This document shows positions 6,866-35,228 of a stretch of DNA of 40,891 nt, one piece after another. Every line of letters starts with the position of its first letter. Position 1 is the first letter of the stretch. Location of the stretch: NCBI GenBank assembly GCA_034717495.1, contig JAYELL010000048.1, positions 1-40,891 of the forward strand. The letters run 5' to 3'. A model generated the notes under the pieces. It saw only the letters and a program-made list of their open reading frames with translations, was not told the DNA's origin and did no database searches. This DNA is from Chloroflexota bacterium (GTDB lineage Bacteria > Chloroflexota > Anaerolineae > JAAEKA01). Both the position numbers and the translations under genes were made by a program.

Positions 6866-9025
6866 ATGGCTCGCATGAATACCGACATCGACTCCCTATC
6901 CATGTTCGACGGCGAACGCCGGACCAGATCCTGGAATGTCCGGACCGTTGAGCCGCACCCTTCCTCCCCCCAGGCTACCTCCCAGGGCAATCTGTATATT
7001 TTATTGGAGATTAGCGGAGAACCGGAAGCTTCAGCGCGGCTCTATCGCCTGCTGATGAATGCCATCCAAGGGGTATACTACGACTCGACCAGCGACGTGC
7101 GAGCAGCCCTTACTGAGGCTATACTCGCCGGGCATAAAGCTCTTCAGGAACATAACAGCGTGTACCCGGATGCGGTTCAGCTTGCCGGAGTCAACTGCGC
7201 TGTGCTCAAGGGCAATGAGCTTTTCCTGGGCGTCGGCGGCCCCGCCATGGTTTTGGTCGGACATCCGGAACGAGTCGAGCAATTCCCCGGGGAGATCCAC
7301 CTGGAGGCTGCTCCTTTAGGGGGCGCTGCGCTGCCCCATATCGAGATCTTTCGGACCTCTATCGGGAAAGAGGCGCTCATTCTGCAATTGGGAAGCAATT
7401 GGGCCGCGAATGTGCCATTGCGCAGGCTGGCCGGGGTCGCCCTTGCGTCCGATACCGAGACCGCCCTGGAATACCTGGAAACCCTGGCTCCCAGCGATGC
7501 AGACCTCAACGCCATGGCGGTTCATGTGACACCGTCAGCGCAGATCGCCGCCAGCGCGGAAGCGCTCGTCGCTCCCATCGTTGCTCCCCCGGCCGACCAG
7601 CAGGAAGAGACGCAAGAAGGGGAACCCGCTACAGAACAAGACGCGGCCGCTGATACCATCGAGGGAGAAGAACCGGTCGAACCAGAGGAAGTGATTGCCT
7701 CCGATGGGGAACGAGCCGTGGAGCTTGGCCAGGTCACAGCGGATCCTGAGCCCGTCGCCGAACCTGTGGTAGCAGAACCGCCCAAAAAACGGCGGTGGTG
7801 GCCCTGGCTATTGATACTGTTGATTCCGGCACTTATCGCAGCCGGTATCTATGCAGCACGCTGGTATCAACGGAGTGCGGTGGAGACGACAGTCGACAGC
7901 CTGATTCAGGGCGCTGTTGCTGCCTATGATGCAGCCATTCAGGAAGGTGTGCTGGACGAAACAGCCCGCGCGCAGCTTCAGGATGCCCAGGAACGGGTTC
8001 AGGAGGCCATTGAGCTGCTTCCCCAAGTCCCCGAGGCAGCCGATCTGCAAGCTGACATTCAGGCGCGCCTGAACGAAGTCAACAGTGTTACACCACTCTA
8101 TAAACTTCTCACGCTGCAGGAGCTGGGCGGTAGCGGCAGCGAGCCTTCCAAAATCGAGATGGACGGTGACCGCATCTACCTGCTTGACCGGGGACTCGAT
8201 CGCGTAACCCAGTATCGTATTGACAATGTGAGTGGCTTGATCCCGGAGACGTCAGCCGGGGTTCTGGCAGAGCGAGGTCAACCTTTGCCCGATGGACAAC
8301 TGGTGGGTGAACTGATGGACTTCGTGTGGGCCGACGCAGGTGGCAACCGAAACTCCAGTAATCTTTTGATCCTTGATAGCAACCGAAACCTGATCGAGTA
8401 TGACAGCGCGACGGGACTCTCTGCACTGGCTCTGGCCGACCGGGAGGCATGGCAGTCTCCCAAGGTCATCTCCAGCTTCATTGGCAACTTTTACCTGGTG
8501 GATGGCAGCGAGACAGGCCGCATACTGCGCTACCGCCCGACTGACGATGGCTACGGAAATGCCCCCGAGTCTTATCTGGAGGACGACGCCACTATCGATT
8601 TTTCGCGGGCCATAGATGTGGGCATCGATGGCGATATCTGGGTACTGTACCGGGACGGCATGGTGCAAGATTTCTCTGAGGGTCGCCAACGGGCTCTGGA
8701 ATTTGAGCAACCACCCGACACACCGTTAGCTCAGCCCCAGGCCTTCTTTGTGGGATCCGAGGCAGGCACCGCCCAGAATCTCTATATCGTCGACAGCGGA
8801 AACGGACGAATTGTGGAATTCGACAAAACAGGCAAATACCTGCAGCAATTCCGTCCTGATGACAGGACCGATCTGGAGAAGCTGCGAAAGATGCGAGACC
8901 TGTACGTTGATGAAATCGGCGGCTATTTCTACATCCTGACCGAGGATGGCCTGTATCGCACCGACATCCCCCAACCCCAGGTCGAAGCTGAGGTCGAAAC
9001 CGAAACGGACAGCGAGGAAAGCTAG
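6866..9025 (+). CDS. Membrane protein with a degenerate PP2C-like domain and extracellular NHL/beta-propeller
   Basis: This 719-residue protein has four visible parts. Residues about 37-225 resemble a PPM/PP2C phosphatase fold: helix AALTEAILAGHKALQEHN, then strands VNCAVLKGNELFLGVGGPAMVLV. The family's GDSR metal-binding turn is replaced by GGPA, so catalysis is doubtful. A Glu/Pro-rich linker follows (about 230-305), then one membrane helix at about 308-330 (WWPWLLILLIPALIAAGIY) after a KKRR stop-transfer cluster. After a helical segment, residues 410-705 form propeller-like repeats (ESYLEDDATIDFSRAIDVGI, NLYIVDSGNGRIVEFDKTG). The topology suggests a cytoplasmic pseudo-phosphatase coupled to an outside sensor. 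The ATG is preceded by AAAGGGG at good spacing. It is followed by an LCP gene, so a cell-envelope role is possible. Confidence 0.7.
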   Translation: MARMNTDIDSLSMFDGERRTRSWNVRTVEPHPSSPQATSQGNLYILLEISGEPEASARLYRLLMNAIQGVYYDSTSDVRAALTEAILAGHKALQEHNSVYPDAVQLAGVNCAVLKGNELFLGVGGPAMVLVGHPERVEQFPGEIHLEAAPLGGAALPHIEIFRTSIGKEALILQLGSNWAANVPLRRLAGVALASDTETALEYLETLAPSDADLNAMAVHVTPSAQIAASAEALVAPIVAPPADQQEETQEGEPATEQDAAADTIEGEEPVEPEEVIASDGERAVELGQVTADPEPVAEPVVAEPPKKRRWWPWLLILLIPALIAAGIYAARWYQRSAVETTVDSLIQGAVAAYDAAIQEGVLDETARAQLQDAQERVQEAIELLPQVPEAADLQADIQARLNEVNSVTPLYKLLTLQELGGSGSEPSKIEMDGDRIYLLDRGLDRVTQYRIDNVSGLIPETSAGVLAERGQPLPDGQLVGELMDFVWADAGGNRNSSNLLILDSNRNLIEYDSATGLSALALADREAWQSPKVISSFIGNFYLVDGSETGRILRYRPTDDGYGNAPESYLEDDATIDFSRAIDVGIDGDIWVLYRDGMVQDFSEGRQRALEFEQPPDTPLAQPQAFFVGSEAGTAQNLYIVDSGNGRIVEFDKTGKYLQQFRPDDRTDLEKLRKMRDLYVDEIGGYFYILTEDGLYRTDIPQPQVEAEVETETDSEES

Positions 9026-11947: not shown

Positions 11948-14674
11948 TTACTGAATCTGCTCGAGTTGCTCCGCCAGGCTGGCATTGGCATCTTCGGTGA
12001 GCTGATCCAGGGTCTCCTGAACAGGCGCACCGCCAGCAATGGCAGCCATAGCTTCCTCTGCCATGTCTCGTACGAAGTCATAGCCCGGTGCCGGCGGCTC
12101 GAAGGTGCCGTAGGGCAGCAATTCGAAGGCGGTCTGGTAGGCCGGATTCTCGGCGAAGTAGTCGTCCAGGCCCTCGGCCACGCTGGCGCGTACCGGGAAG
12201 TAGTTGCTGGCCTGCGCCCACTTGGCCTGCACATCAGGGCTGGTGTAGTGCTTCAGGAACAGCCAGGCAGCCAACTGCTGCTCAGACGTGGTCTTGGGAA
12301 TGCTGACGCTGGCGCCGTAGATGTTCTGCGCCGGCTCTTCAGTGGTATACGGGATCGGTGCAACACTCCAATTGAAGTTGGCACCTTCCTCCACGGCACT
12401 ACGATAGTATGGCAGACCTGAGCTGGAGCCCACTGTGAACAGCAGGCGGCCCTGGCCAAAGTCGGTCTGGTCGCCGTAGCGCTCCGTCACAATGGTGGCG
12501 CAGCCCTCTTCGAACAACTCCTGCAGGAACGACATCGCCGCCACCGCCGCCTCGTTGTTGTAGTCGTATTGGCCATCTTCGTAGTCGAAAACATCCCCAC
12601 CTCGAGCGAAGGTCCAGCTCGCGAAGCGGGAGGCATCCACGCTCAATTCGTAGCCGATGGGGCTGACATCGGTGCTGGCCCCGCTGTAGGGTGAGGCGCT
12701 AGCCGCACAGGCCATCTCCTTGAATTCTTCAGGCGTTGCCGGCGGTGCATCGTAGCCCAATTCCTTCAGCCAATCCATGTTGTAGTACATCACTTCCATG
12801 GAGCGGTTGGGCGGGAAGCCCAGACGGGCATTGCCAAAGTTGGGGAAGATGTCCTGGTTGAAGAAGCCTGAGAAGAAGTCCTTCTGCTCAGCACTGTTCA
12901 AGCCATACTTGATGCTCTCGACGTAGGGAGTCATGTCCACCAGCGCATCGCCCAACTGGTAAGTTGCAGCCTGATTCTGGTAGGCCACCACCAGGTTGGG
13001 AGCATCCTCGGTATTCATGAAGGTCAACATCTTGTTGAAGATGTCACCATAACCACCCTGGTACTCGGCGACCACTTCGATGCCATACTTGTTGGTATCG
13101 TTGAACTCCTGAACGATCTCCTGCAGCGCCGTCTCACGGTCGCGCGTGTGCTGGTGCCAGAAGAAGACCGTCTGTCCGCTGGGGTCGATCTTGGCCAGAG
13201 CGTCGGGCGATTCGGGAATCTGCTCGAGCTGTTCCGCCAGGCTGGCATTGGCATCTTCGGTGAGCTGATCCAGGGTCTCCTGAACAGGCGCACCGCCAGC
13301 AATGGCAGCCATGGCTTCCTCTGCCATGTCTCGTACGAAGTCATAGCCCGGCGCCGGCGGCTCGAAGGTGCCGTAGGGCAGCAATTCGAAGGCGGTCTGG
13401 TAGGCCGGATTCTCGGCGAAGTAGTCGTCCAGGCCCTCGGCCACACCGGAGCGTACCGGGAAGTAGTTGCTGGCCTCAACCCACTTGGCCTGCACATCAG
13501 GGCTGGTGTAGTGCTTCAGGAACAGCCAGGCAGCCAACTCTGCATCAGGGGTGGTCTTGGGGATACTGACGCTGGCGCCGTAGATGTTCTGCACCGGTTC
13601 TCCAGTGGTATACGGGATCGGTGCAACACTCCAGTTGAAGTTAGCGCCTTCCTCCACGGCACTACGATAGTATGGCAGACCTGAGCTGGAGCCCACTGTG
13701 AACAGCAGGCGGCCCTGGCCAAAGTCGGTCTGGTCGCCGTAGCGCTCCGTCACAATGGTGGCGCAGCCCTCTTCGAACAACTCCTGCAGGAACGACATCG
13801 CCGCCACCGCCGCCTCGTTGTTGTAGTCGTATTGGCCATCTTCGTAGTCGAAAACATCCCCACCTCGAGCGAAGGTCCAGCTCGCGAAGCGGGAGGCATC
13901 CACGCTCAATTCGTAGCCGATGGGGCTGACATCGGTGCTGGCCCCGCTGTAGGGTGAGGCGCTAGCCGCACAGGCCATCTCCTTGAATTCTTCAGGCGTT
14001 GCCGGCGGTGCATCGTAGCCCAATTCCTTCAGCCAATCCATGTTGTAGTACATCACTTCCATGGAGCGGTTGGGCGGGAAGCCCAGACGGGCATTGCCAA
14101 AGTTGGGGAAGATGTCCTGACCGTAGAAGCCGCTGAAAAAGTCTCGCTGCTCCTCAGCAGAGTAACCCCATTTGGCACTATCAACCAAATCGGTCATGTC
14201 AATGAGAGAGTCGCCCAGCTGGTAGGTCGCAGCCTGGTTCTGGTAGGCCACCACCAGATTAGGAGCGTCCTCGGTATTCATGAAGGTCAACATCTTGTTG
14301 AAGATGTCACCATAACCACCCTGGTACTCGGCGACCACCTCAATCCCGTACTCGTTGCTATCGTTGAACTCCTGAACAATCTCCTGGAGCGCTTCTTCCC
14401 GGCCGCGAGTGTGCTGGTGCCAGAAAAAGACCGTCTGCCCGCTGGGATCCACCTCTGCCCATGCATCAGCCGTCGCAGTCATATCCTGGGTAGAAGGCTT
14501 GGCCGTTGGAGCTTCTTCTTTGGCCTCTTCAACTTTTTCGGTCACCTTCTCGGCCACTTCTTCGACCTTCTCCTGAACCTGCTCAGATGGCTCATCCTTG
14601 CCGCCACAGGCGCCAAGCACCATTGCGGCGACGAGAATAATCGCCAACAGTATCCAAAGCTTCGACCTTGTCAT
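11948..14674 (-). CDS. Sugar ABC transporter solute-binding lipoprotein with tandem duplicated binding domain
   Basis: This 908-residue protein is about twice the usual size of a family 1 extracellular solute-binding protein. The N-terminus has a lipoprotein signal with lipobox LGAC (Cys23), then a charged Glu/Lys linker (residues 28-58). Two complete binding domains follow, about 74-490 and 495-908, both starting DPSGQTVFFWHQHTR and ending LTEDANASLAEQLEQI. The second copy has no signal and is joined through PESPDALAKI. The halves keep one register with a constant 1263-bp offset and no indels. The permease genes just upstream make it the binding component of a carbohydrate importer. ATG 14674 has GGAGGAG about 8 nt upstream. 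Fusion of tandem genes or an assembly error are both conceivable. Confidence 0.9.
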   Translation of the reverse strand: MTRSKLWILLAIILVAAMVLGACGGKDEPSEQVQEKVEEVAEKVTEKVEEAKEEAPTAKPSTQDMTATADAWAEVDPSGQTVFFWHQHTRGREEALQEIVQEFNDSNEYGIEVVAEYQGGYGDIFNKMLTFMNTEDAPNLVVAYQNQAATYQLGDSLIDMTDLVDSAKWGYSAEEQRDFFSGFYGQDIFPNFGNARLGFPPNRSMEVMYYNMDWLKELGYDAPPATPEEFKEMACAASASPYSGASTDVSPIGYELSVDASRFASWTFARGGDVFDYEDGQYDYNNEAAVAAMSFLQELFEEGCATIVTERYGDQTDFGQGRLLFTVGSSSGLPYYRSAVEEGANFNWSVAPIPYTTGEPVQNIYGASVSIPKTTPDAELAAWLFLKHYTSPDVQAKWVEASNYFPVRSGVAEGLDDYFAENPAYQTAFELLPYGTFEPPAPGYDFVRDMAEEAMAAIAGGAPVQETLDQLTEDANASLAEQLEQIPESPDALAKIDPSGQTVFFWHQHTRDRETALQEIVQEFNDTNKYGIEVVAEYQGGYGDIFNKMLTFMNTEDAPNLVVAYQNQAATYQLGDALVDMTPYVESIKYGLNSAEQKDFFSGFFNQDIFPNFGNARLGFPPNRSMEVMYYNMDWLKELGYDAPPATPEEFKEMACAASASPYSGASTDVSPIGYELSVDASRFASWTFARGGDVFDYEDGQYDYNNEAAVAAMSFLQELFEEGCATIVTERYGDQTDFGQGRLLFTVGSSSGLPYYRSAVEEGANFNWSVAPIPYTTEEPAQNIYGASVSIPKTTSEQQLAAWLFLKHYTSPDVQAKWAQASNYFPVRASVAEGLDDYFAENPAYQTAFELLPYGTFEPPAPGYDFVRDMAEEAMAAIAGGAPVQETLDQLTEDANASLAEQLEQIQ
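11954..14470. repeat. Tandem in-frame duplication, 1263-bp period
   Basis: Copy A runs from about 11954 to 13216 and copy B from about 13217 to 14470. Landmarks compared at both ends give the same 1263-bp offset. Positions 12384-12856 and 13647-14119 (473 bp) are identical by eye, whereas the flanking parts differ at many sites, including clustered amino-acid changes beside the identical block. Confidence 0.85.
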
Positions 14675-14770: not shown

Positions 14771-15670
14771 CTATCCCTTCAGACCGGAAGTGGCAATACC
14801 CTCGGTAAACTGCTTTTGGGTCAAAAAATACATAATGAGAATCGGGATCACTGTGATGACAGCGCCTGCCATCAGGAGTTGGGTCTCCGGACCTGCTTCT
14901 GTCACAAAGGTCCAAAGGCCAACCATCAGCGGTCGCCAATCAGGCTTGGTAGTCACCAGCAGAGGCCACAGGAAAGCGTTCCACGCACCGATAAATGCAA
15001 AGATGGTGACCGTCAGGATCGGTGCTACGCTCATGGGCAGCACGATGCGTAACAAAAAGCGAAAATGACCTGCGCCATCGATTTGGGCAGAATCCCATAG
15101 CTCATTGGGAATCTGAGCGAAAAACTGGCGCAAGAGGAAAATACTAAAGGCATTTGCCATGAAGGGTACCGTCAATGCAGGCAGCCTGTTGAGCCAGGTA
15201 CCACCGGGCAGGGGAATGACATCACCACGGATCATCAGGAAATTTGGGATCATGGTCACCGATTCCGGAATCATCATGGTTGCCAGCAAGATGGCGAATA
15301 GAACGTTTTTGCCCCAGAAATCGATGCGAGCGAAGGCATAGGCAGCCAACACGGATGATGTCAACAGTCCAGCCAACGTGACCAGCGTGATAATAACGCT
15401 ATTGAGAAAATATTTATCGAACCTGGCTTCCTCCCACGCCTCCACGTAGTTCGAGAATTGAGGTACATCGGGCAGCCATTGGCGATTGATCGTCTCTCCA
15501 AGAGTCATCAGAGAGGTCGATAACATCCAGAAAAAGGGCAGAAAGGCCAGAAACGCACCAAAGAACAGGATGGCGTATAGCACCAGGCGCCCAGGCTGAA
15601 TGCGAAAACCTGATGATTTAGAAGAGCTAACGCTCGACTGGTCATCCATGGTGGGTGCCGTACTAGCCAT
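14771..15670 (-). CDS. Carbohydrate ABC transporter permease, MalG type
   Basis: This 299-residue inner-membrane protein of the binding-protein-dependent transport superfamily has six predicted membrane helices; the first is LVLYAILFFGAFLAFLPFF. The EAA loop (LWDSAQIDGAGHFRFLLRIVLP) contacts the ATPase. The C-terminus QKQFTEGIATSGLKG is typical of MalG-like proteins. ATG 15670 is chosen over the longer frame because it overlaps the upstream permease stop by 8 nt (ATGGCTAG), which implies coupled translation. No ATP-binding subunit gene is present; such importers often share a general MsmK/MalK-type ATPase encoded elsewhere. Confidence 0.9.
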   Translation of the reverse strand: MASTAPTMDDQSSVSSSKSSGFRIQPGRLVLYAILFFGAFLAFLPFFWMLSTSLMTLGETINRQWLPDVPQFSNYVEAWEEARFDKYFLNSVIITLVTLAGLLTSSVLAAYAFARIDFWGKNVLFAILLATMMIPESVTMIPNFLMIRGDVIPLPGGTWLNRLPALTVPFMANAFSIFLLRQFFAQIPNELWDSAQIDGAGHFRFLLRIVLPMSVAPILTVTIFAFIGAWNAFLWPLLVTTKPDWRPLMVGLWTFVTEAGPETQLLMAGAVITVIPILIMYFLTQKQFTEGIATSGLKG

Positions 15671-16826
15671 AGAACACCTTCTCTCCAAAGACCTTGTTCT
15701 GGACCAAAGTCAGGGCCAAAATGATTGCAAAGAGAATCAACGCCTGGGAAGAAGCGTAGCCATATTGATTGGCCTTGTAAAAGGTATCGAAAATCTCCAC
15801 GCTTGCCACATCTGCCGTCCCCAGGGCCGATGGCTGTCGCATGACGTAAATATGATTGAAGGCCTTAAAGGTTCCGATGAAAGCAATTAGCGCCAGGTAG
15901 AAGGTAACAGGTGACAGGAGAGGCAAGGTAATGTATCGGAAAAGATGCCAGTTATTGGCACCATCGATCTTGGCTGCCTCATACAAGTCCCCAGGGATGG
16001 AGCCCAGGCCCGCCAGGAAGATAACCGTGTTATAGCCAATGTAGGTCCAGACACCAAAAAAGATGATCGACACCAGAGCCATGCTCGGTCCGGCGACCAG
16101 GCCGTCCAGATTCATGCCAAACATGGCATTGACAAAGGGAGCAGGCTCGAAGAGCCACTTTTGGGGATCCTGCCCAATGAGGGCCAAAGCCTGGTTGGCA
16201 AGAGAGCTTTCCCGGGGGCTAAAAATGGTGCGGAACACGACAGCTGTAGCCACCACTGGCGTGATGTAGGGCAGGAAGTAGATCATACGAAAGAACTCCT
16301 GCCCCTTGATATTCTGAAACAGAATGTATGCCAGCACCAGAGCAATACCTATTTCGGCTGGCACGGTCCCCAACGCATAGAATACCGTGCGGGGCAAGGC
16401 GTCGAGAAACCGGGGATCCCCGGTTTCCTGCATTCGGCCCCAGCCCATCATCAGCAGCCAACCGGCTCCGATCAGAAGCAAAGCGCAGATAACACCGGTG
16501 ACCAGACCCCGGTTGGTCGCAGCTTTAAAAGCATGTTGCCAAACGATGTAGGCTGCAACCAAAAGCAAAATCCCACCGATGAAGAAGACCATACCCTGCC
16601 AGTCACCCAGGGCCTTTTCGAAGTTTCCAAGACCAATGAACTTGCCCTGGCGTACACGCCAATTATAGGTGCTCACATACACGGAGTAACCAATGGGGAA
16701 GAGTCCGAAAATGGCGATGATCAAGAAAGCAGGGAAGACAAAAAGATAGCCTGCAAGTTGCTCCTTGATGTCTATCCAGCGCCACCGGCGCCGGGGTTTG
16801 GGGGCTGGAGATGCTGCGGCTGACAA
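15663..16826 (-). CDS. Carbohydrate ABC transporter permease, MalF type
   Basis: This 387-residue permease is first in the operon. A basic N-terminus (KPRRRWRWIDIKE) precedes the first helix (AGYLFVFPAFLIIAIFGLFP). An extra pair of hydrophobic segments at about 80-130 (MVFFIGGILLLVAAYIVW; GLVTGVICALLLIGAGWLL) makes it longer than the 290-310 residues usual for the family, similar in concept to the extra helices of E. coli MalF. The EAA motif YEAAKIDGANNWHLFRYITLP is intact. Together with the MalG-type permease and the duplicated binding protein it forms a sugar importer. Confidence 0.9.
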   Translation of the reverse strand: MSAAASPAPKPRRRWRWIDIKEQLAGYLFVFPAFLIIAIFGLFPIGYSVYVSTYNWRVRQGKFIGLGNFEKALGDWQGMVFFIGGILLLVAAYIVWQHAFKAATNRGLVTGVICALLLIGAGWLLMMGWGRMQETGDPRFLDALPRTVFYALGTVPAEIGIALVLAYILFQNIKGQEFFRMIYFLPYITPVVATAVVFRTIFSPRESSLANQALALIGQDPQKWLFEPAPFVNAMFGMNLDGLVAGPSMALVSIIFFGVWTYIGYNTVIFLAGLGSIPGDLYEAAKIDGANNWHLFRYITLPLLSPVTFYLALIAFIGTFKAFNHIYVMRQPSALGTADVASVEIFDTFYKANQYGYASSQALILFAIILALTLVQNKVFGEKVFYG

Positions 16827-25586: not shown

Positions 25587-25694
25587 GGAGACTCGGAGTC
25601 TCAGAGTTTCAGAGTCTCAGAAGGTCGGGACGTCTGGTCCTCTGACCCTCTGGCATTCTGATCCTCTGATAATCTGGCCCTCTGCCTCTCTGCC
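25587..25694 (-). repeat. CTCTGA-word spacer between atpD and atpC
   Basis: The gap is almost entirely made of CTCTGAnnCTCT-type words. The minus-strand 17-mer GAGACTCTGAAACTCTG (at 25602-25618) is identical to 35199-35215 and 37199-37215 on the plus strand. No hairpin with a T tract is evident. Confidence 0.75.
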
Positions 25695-35149: not shown

Positions 35150-35228
35150 TCAGAGTATCGGAGTATCGGAGTGTCGGTCTGAGACTCTCTGACATGCTGA
35201 GACTCTGAAACTCTGGAACTCTCCCCTT
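35150..35228 (+). repeat. CTCTGA/GAGTATCG-word spacer
   Basis: GAGTATCGGAGTATCGGAGTGTCGG repeats then GAGACTCTGAAACTCTG (35199-35215). The latter 17-mer is shared exactly with 37199-37215 and with the minus strand at 25602-25618. It directly follows the propeller gene stop. Confidence 0.75.

Follow-up and report, generated by a model that had tools for sequence, protein, structure and literature searches.

Identical central block in the two domains of a tandem solute-binding protein gene of a Chloroflexota bacterium, probably produced by recombination within the gene

In the window (the whole stretch of 40,891 bases analysed here), a gene for a tandem solute-binding protein carries two copies of a binding domain that are identical over a central block of 473 bases and diverged outside it. 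The pattern is best explained, with good confidence, by a domain duplication, drift of the copies and recombination between the internal repeats, either as gene conversion or as unequal exchange. We infer the recombination step from direct observations, namely the exactness of the block, its silent synonymous sites, the variability of the same region in relatives and the presence of the tandem architecture elsewhere.

Results

The 908-residue protein has a signal sequence, followed by a linker rich in E and K and by two solute-binding domains (Table 1), with a repeat period of 421 residues. The Pfam model SBP_bac_8 matched both halves, in two stretches and with 223.6 bits against a curated cut-off of 27. 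The N-terminus resembles a lipoprotein signal, with the lipobox LGAC, and the product is probably a lipoprotein. The gene order permease-permease-receptor was found in nine of the 13 loci examined (L020, L021, L022, L023, L024, L062, L059, L088 and L046); in the available stretch of the other four (L086, L087, L089 and L090), there was no match to the permeases of the window. The gene product would be the membrane-anchored receptor of an ABC importer. Elsewhere in the window, a 719-aa open frame (6866-9025) gave no Pfam match at E 0.001, and a direct repeat of 49 bases (93-141 and 1239-1287, 82% alike) was present in copies 1146 bases apart. In addition, a short motif (AGTTTCAGAGTCTCAGA) occurs in inverted copies at 25596-25635 and 35182-35221; with at most one mismatch it had 14 matches in the genome, against three for the reversed control, and therefore it may be a dispersed repeat.

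Table 1. Coordinates of the tandem gene, its repeated parts and the neighbouring permease genes in the window.
Feature	Position	Strand	Basis
Tandem solute-binding protein gene, two SBP_bac_8 domains, 908 aa	11948..14674	-	ORF and Pfam
N-terminal binding domain, aa 76-487	13214..14449	-	self-comparison of halves
C-terminal binding domain, aa 494-908	11951..13195	-	alignment of halves, Pfam and model
Short interdomain linker, aa 488-493	13196..13213	-	alignment of halves
Identical block, 473 bases, N-domain copy	13647..14119	-	direct comparison
Identical block, 473 bases, C-domain copy	12384..12856	-	direct comparison
Most diverged C-domain stretch, adjoining the block (counterpart 14120-14267)	12857..13004	-	alignment
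Second nearly identical stretch (counterpart 13233-13444)	11970..12181	-	alignment
ABC permease (BPD_transp_1), upstream of the 908-aa gene, same strand	14771..15688	-	Pfam
ABC permease (BPD_transp_1), presumed first gene of the operon	15663..16826	-	Pfam

The earlier note had reported the two copies of the block as identical, and this is exact: they agree at 473 of 473 bases at an offset of 1263, and the extension halts at both ends with a mismatch at the very next base. The aligned domains differ at 93 of 1236 bases and have no identical run longer than this one; when the 93 differences were shuffled 20,000 times, the longest run never exceeded 165 bases (mean 65). The 5.0-Mb assembly contains exactly two copies of the block, and no third copy that could have acted as donor was found elsewhere in it. 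The two residue strings quoted in the earlier note border the block, in the N and in the C domain.

A comparison of synonymous divergence, which the earlier note had proposed, separates the block sharply from its surroundings. Among the 367 degenerate codons that encode the same residue in both domains, 39 differ synonymously, every one of them outside codons 185-342; the counts are 0 of 150 in the block versus 39 of 217 outside it (Fisher p 3e-10), and none of 50,000 synonymous shuffles reached the observed run. A tract with near-zero synonymous divergence and diverged flanks, as expected of gene conversion, is therefore present. Along the domain, starting at its N-terminal end, the regional counts are 12/52, 16/36, 0/150, 7/32, 0/29 and 4/68, so that divergence is patchy outside the block too.

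Strong purifying selection on both domains could be thought to hold the block identical, and some constraint is expected, since both domains presumably need to bind and dock. To evaluate this explanation, 64 domains were extracted from relatives and the window. In the 1533 pairs with more than 1000 shared bases and less than 45% divergence, few of them tandem pairs within a gene, the synonymous fraction averaged 0.484 within the block region, against 0.492 outside it. The 19 pairs of single-copy relatives with at most 13% divergence, similar to that of the window domains, showed 15 to 43 synonymous differences in the block in all 19 cases, and a silent block in none of them; their longest identical runs were of 38 to 95 bases, and the contrast between block and outside gave a p just under 0.05 in only one of the 19. 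Amino-acid conservation in a 44-row alignment was 0.72 for the block, with 0.71-0.72 for the three other parts of the domain. The region is thus not specially conserved among orthologs, again as expected of gene conversion. Since its synonymous sites vary normally among relatives and its protein conservation is no higher than elsewhere, constraint does not explain the block, and we regard selection as ruled out by these controls, with a practically negligible chance of being the cause. The earlier note had argued that uniform selection could not produce such a block and had proposed gene conversion; the controls agree with the former, and the synonymous contrast together with the unremarkable conservation in relatives supports recombination.

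The sequence outside the block deserves separate consideration. Divergence on both sides had been claimed and is confirmed, with a mismatch at each edge, but the two sides are unequal: 25 of 431 bases differ in 11953-12383, and 77 of 354 in 12857-13210. The domains therefore form a mosaic rather than a single island of identity. The highest divergence adjoins the block, and codons 135-184, within that stretch (Table 1), differ at 45 of 150 bases. Towards the 3' end, the second nearly identical stretch has two differences, at 12050 and 12089, and is possibly an older tract. In terms of codons, 4 of 97 synonymous codons differ in 382-487 and 35 of 120 in the remaining outside codons. This heterogeneity would also be expected if the duplication were recent and identical throughout, and the diverged stretches had later been imported into one copy from a related strain. 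However, the window domains are sisters against L020 and seven to eight outgroups in every region tested, including 135-184, with p-AU below 0.04 for all the alternatives. Therefore, any donor would have to be a close unsampled relative, and we consider import quite unlikely.

The assembly itself was the other possible source of identity: the blocks might differ in the living genome and have been merged by the assembler into one consensus that was threaded twice. The block is known from one assembly, which is fragmented (120 contigs) and represents the only genome of its genus, and its 473 bases exceed the usual short reads. Besides, the available text on metaSPAdes describes how aggressive bulge handling collapses strain differences (PMC8021871), although the assembler used here may be another one. 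Nevertheless, at k 21 to 77 the two halves share further, shorter segments, and the intervening bubbles were kept apart in the assembly, with single-base bubbles at 12050 and 12089 (k 21-33) and one of 35 bases at 12182-12216 (k 33-55). Collapse is disfavoured because these smaller bubbles, an internal control, survived within the same gene, and an assembler that keeps small bubbles would not obviously merge a larger block. The path entry-block-joint-block-exit is also the simplest that uses all the unique pieces, although more than two passes round the loop are possible and the number of passes in the assembly could be wrong. Furthermore, an identical core of 904 bases is present in an independent assembly, in gene L021, on a contig of 1.34 Mb. 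On this evidence we consider a merged block unlikely. A chimeric assembly, the other reading raised in the earlier note, fits poorly as a plain chimera, because the domains are joined in unique sequence, between the two blocks, and other assemblies have the same two-domain architecture. As the joint is unique, the existence of the tandem is independent of the block.

The search for related genes gave 37 loci in the genome scan and, in the class, a match at E 1e-60 or better in 201 of 396 genomes. At least nine tandem genes were confirmed (the window gene L001, L020, L021, L022, L057, L074, L085, L086 and L087), a lower bound that covers the loci inspected among the class-search matches; L022, cut by a contig end, and L061 are one gene. 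The halves share a DNA identity of 93% in the window gene, 81% in L020, 98% in L021, 87% in L057, 94% over 608 bases in L022, about 65% in L074, L085 and L086, and 69-71% in two shorter pieces of L087. For five of the 37 loci (L022, L046, L051, L053 and L054), the contig ends within the binding-protein gene. The count of tandem genes may be too low because assemblies break at this point, although the mere shortness of contigs could be a sufficient explanation. Five long open frames suspected of being tandem (L094-L098) were discarded, as they have one matching domain each.

The test of run length took in the window gene, L020, L021, L022 and L057 and left out L074 and L085-L087. The halves of L021 have 36 differences over 1272 bases, all of them in the initial 118 bases or at positions 1022 and above, and none of 10,000 shuffles gave a run as long as its core of 904 bases. 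The same was true of the identical run of 110 bases in L057 (0 of 10,000). For the runs of 103 bases in the partial L022 and of 44 bases in L020, 152 and 220 of the 10,000 shuffles, respectively, were as long. Clear tracts are thus present in three of the five genes (window, L021 and L057), and the signs of tracts in L020 and the partial L022 are at most weak.

In a tree of 63 rows, the halves of each of the seven included tandem genes were sisters. When L086 and L087 were added, the N halves of L085-L087 formed one clade and their C halves another, and the halves of L057 stayed together; forcing the N halves of L057 and L085-L087, four in all, into one group was rejected (p-AU 9e-5). L085, L086 and L087 are one family (f50) of tandem receptors that shares an ancestral tandem without homogenisation, and they provide a contrast group. 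Their separate N and C clades show an old and stable tandem in at least one case; the rest arose by separate duplications or have been homogenised. Homogenisation of tandem domains is not general, because the signs in L020 and L022 are at most weak and the N and C lineages of L085-L087 have stayed apart. As regards the window gene and L020, grouping of the halves within each gene was favoured in every region tested, and the AU test rejected an orthologous pairing of their N domains and of their C domains, both over the whole domain and in every region to which it was applied. This sisterhood in both genes is equally well explained by independent duplications; the linkers of the two genes, similar in length by eye, may hint at a shared duplication. 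Three single-domain relatives whose records are named Trueperaceae (Deinococcota), L041, L043 and L051, fall inside the Chloroflexota in the 63-row tree, and their placement may reflect transfer or misbinned contigs.

Discussion

According to the explanation we prefer, the binding domain would have been duplicated within the gene and the copies would then have drifted apart. Homologous recombination between the internal repeats, by gene conversion or by unequal exchange between sister chromosomes and a subsequent contraction, would have overwritten a centre of at least 473 bases in one domain copy with the other copy, and the nearly identical stretch towards the 3' end would be the trace of an earlier tract.

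Another aspect to mention is whether both domains work. The model of the C domain (mean pLDDT 95.2) has the fold of a solute-binding protein, with a TMq of 0.83 to solved binding proteins in Foldseek. The nearest solved structures to one window domain, each with a single domain, are the series 7c0f to 7c1b, a dinucleotide-binding protein of an ABC transporter, at about 30% identity in Foldseek, and UgpB (4aq4, 6x84), near in fold and sequence at 20-22%. The ligand of the 908-aa protein cannot be read from these likenesses. An assignment to UgpB, the sn-glycerol-3-phosphate receptor, was rejected, as model NF008211 gave 153.2 bits against a curated cut-off of 411. None of the 31 residue differences between the domains falls in any of the 20 columns that the 44-row alignment lists as invariant, and two fall in nearly invariant columns: where the C domain has E305 and S338, the N domain has D and G; judging from the residues, this pattern would fit two working receptors. 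Both domains likely bind the same ligand and dock by turns on one translocator, raising the local concentration of receptor. By analogy with GlnPQ, an ABC importer described in the available text of PMC8025302 as having two linked binding domains in a row that serve one translocator, the two heads likely share one ligand and one translocator. The GlnPQ domains differ in specificity and form one protein with the permease; the window domains, in contrast, form a separate SBP_bac_8-type protein and are 93% identical.

The process itself is already known. In bacterial paralogs such as tuf, gene conversion makes or keeps the copies within a genome alike at synonymous and non-synonymous sites, as stated in the available part of PMC6053082. 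Unlike those paralogs, the repeats in the window are domains within a single gene; they lie at a distance of 1263 bases and are homogenised in part. What is new is where the process occurs, namely between two domains of a single receptor gene whose relatives represent all stages; a literature search on tandem binding proteins and intragenic gene conversion of this kind gave nothing on this architecture among the matches listed. It is conceivable, as a tentative generalisation, that Anaerolineae repeatedly make double-headed ABC receptors by domain duplication within the gene, and that recombination keeps the cores the same while the ends drift; in that case, a single fused gene would evolve by internal concerted evolution and so maintain two equal receptor heads.

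As a warning, short-read assemblies may break or collapse such tandem genes. The gene offers a clear-cut example from nature of how repeats recombine within one coding sequence, with built-in controls: many relatives have the single-domain gene, and the tandems extend from 98% identical halves to fully separate lineages. This range allows the study of the position and rate of intragenic homogenisation, as well as of the benefit of a double receptor.
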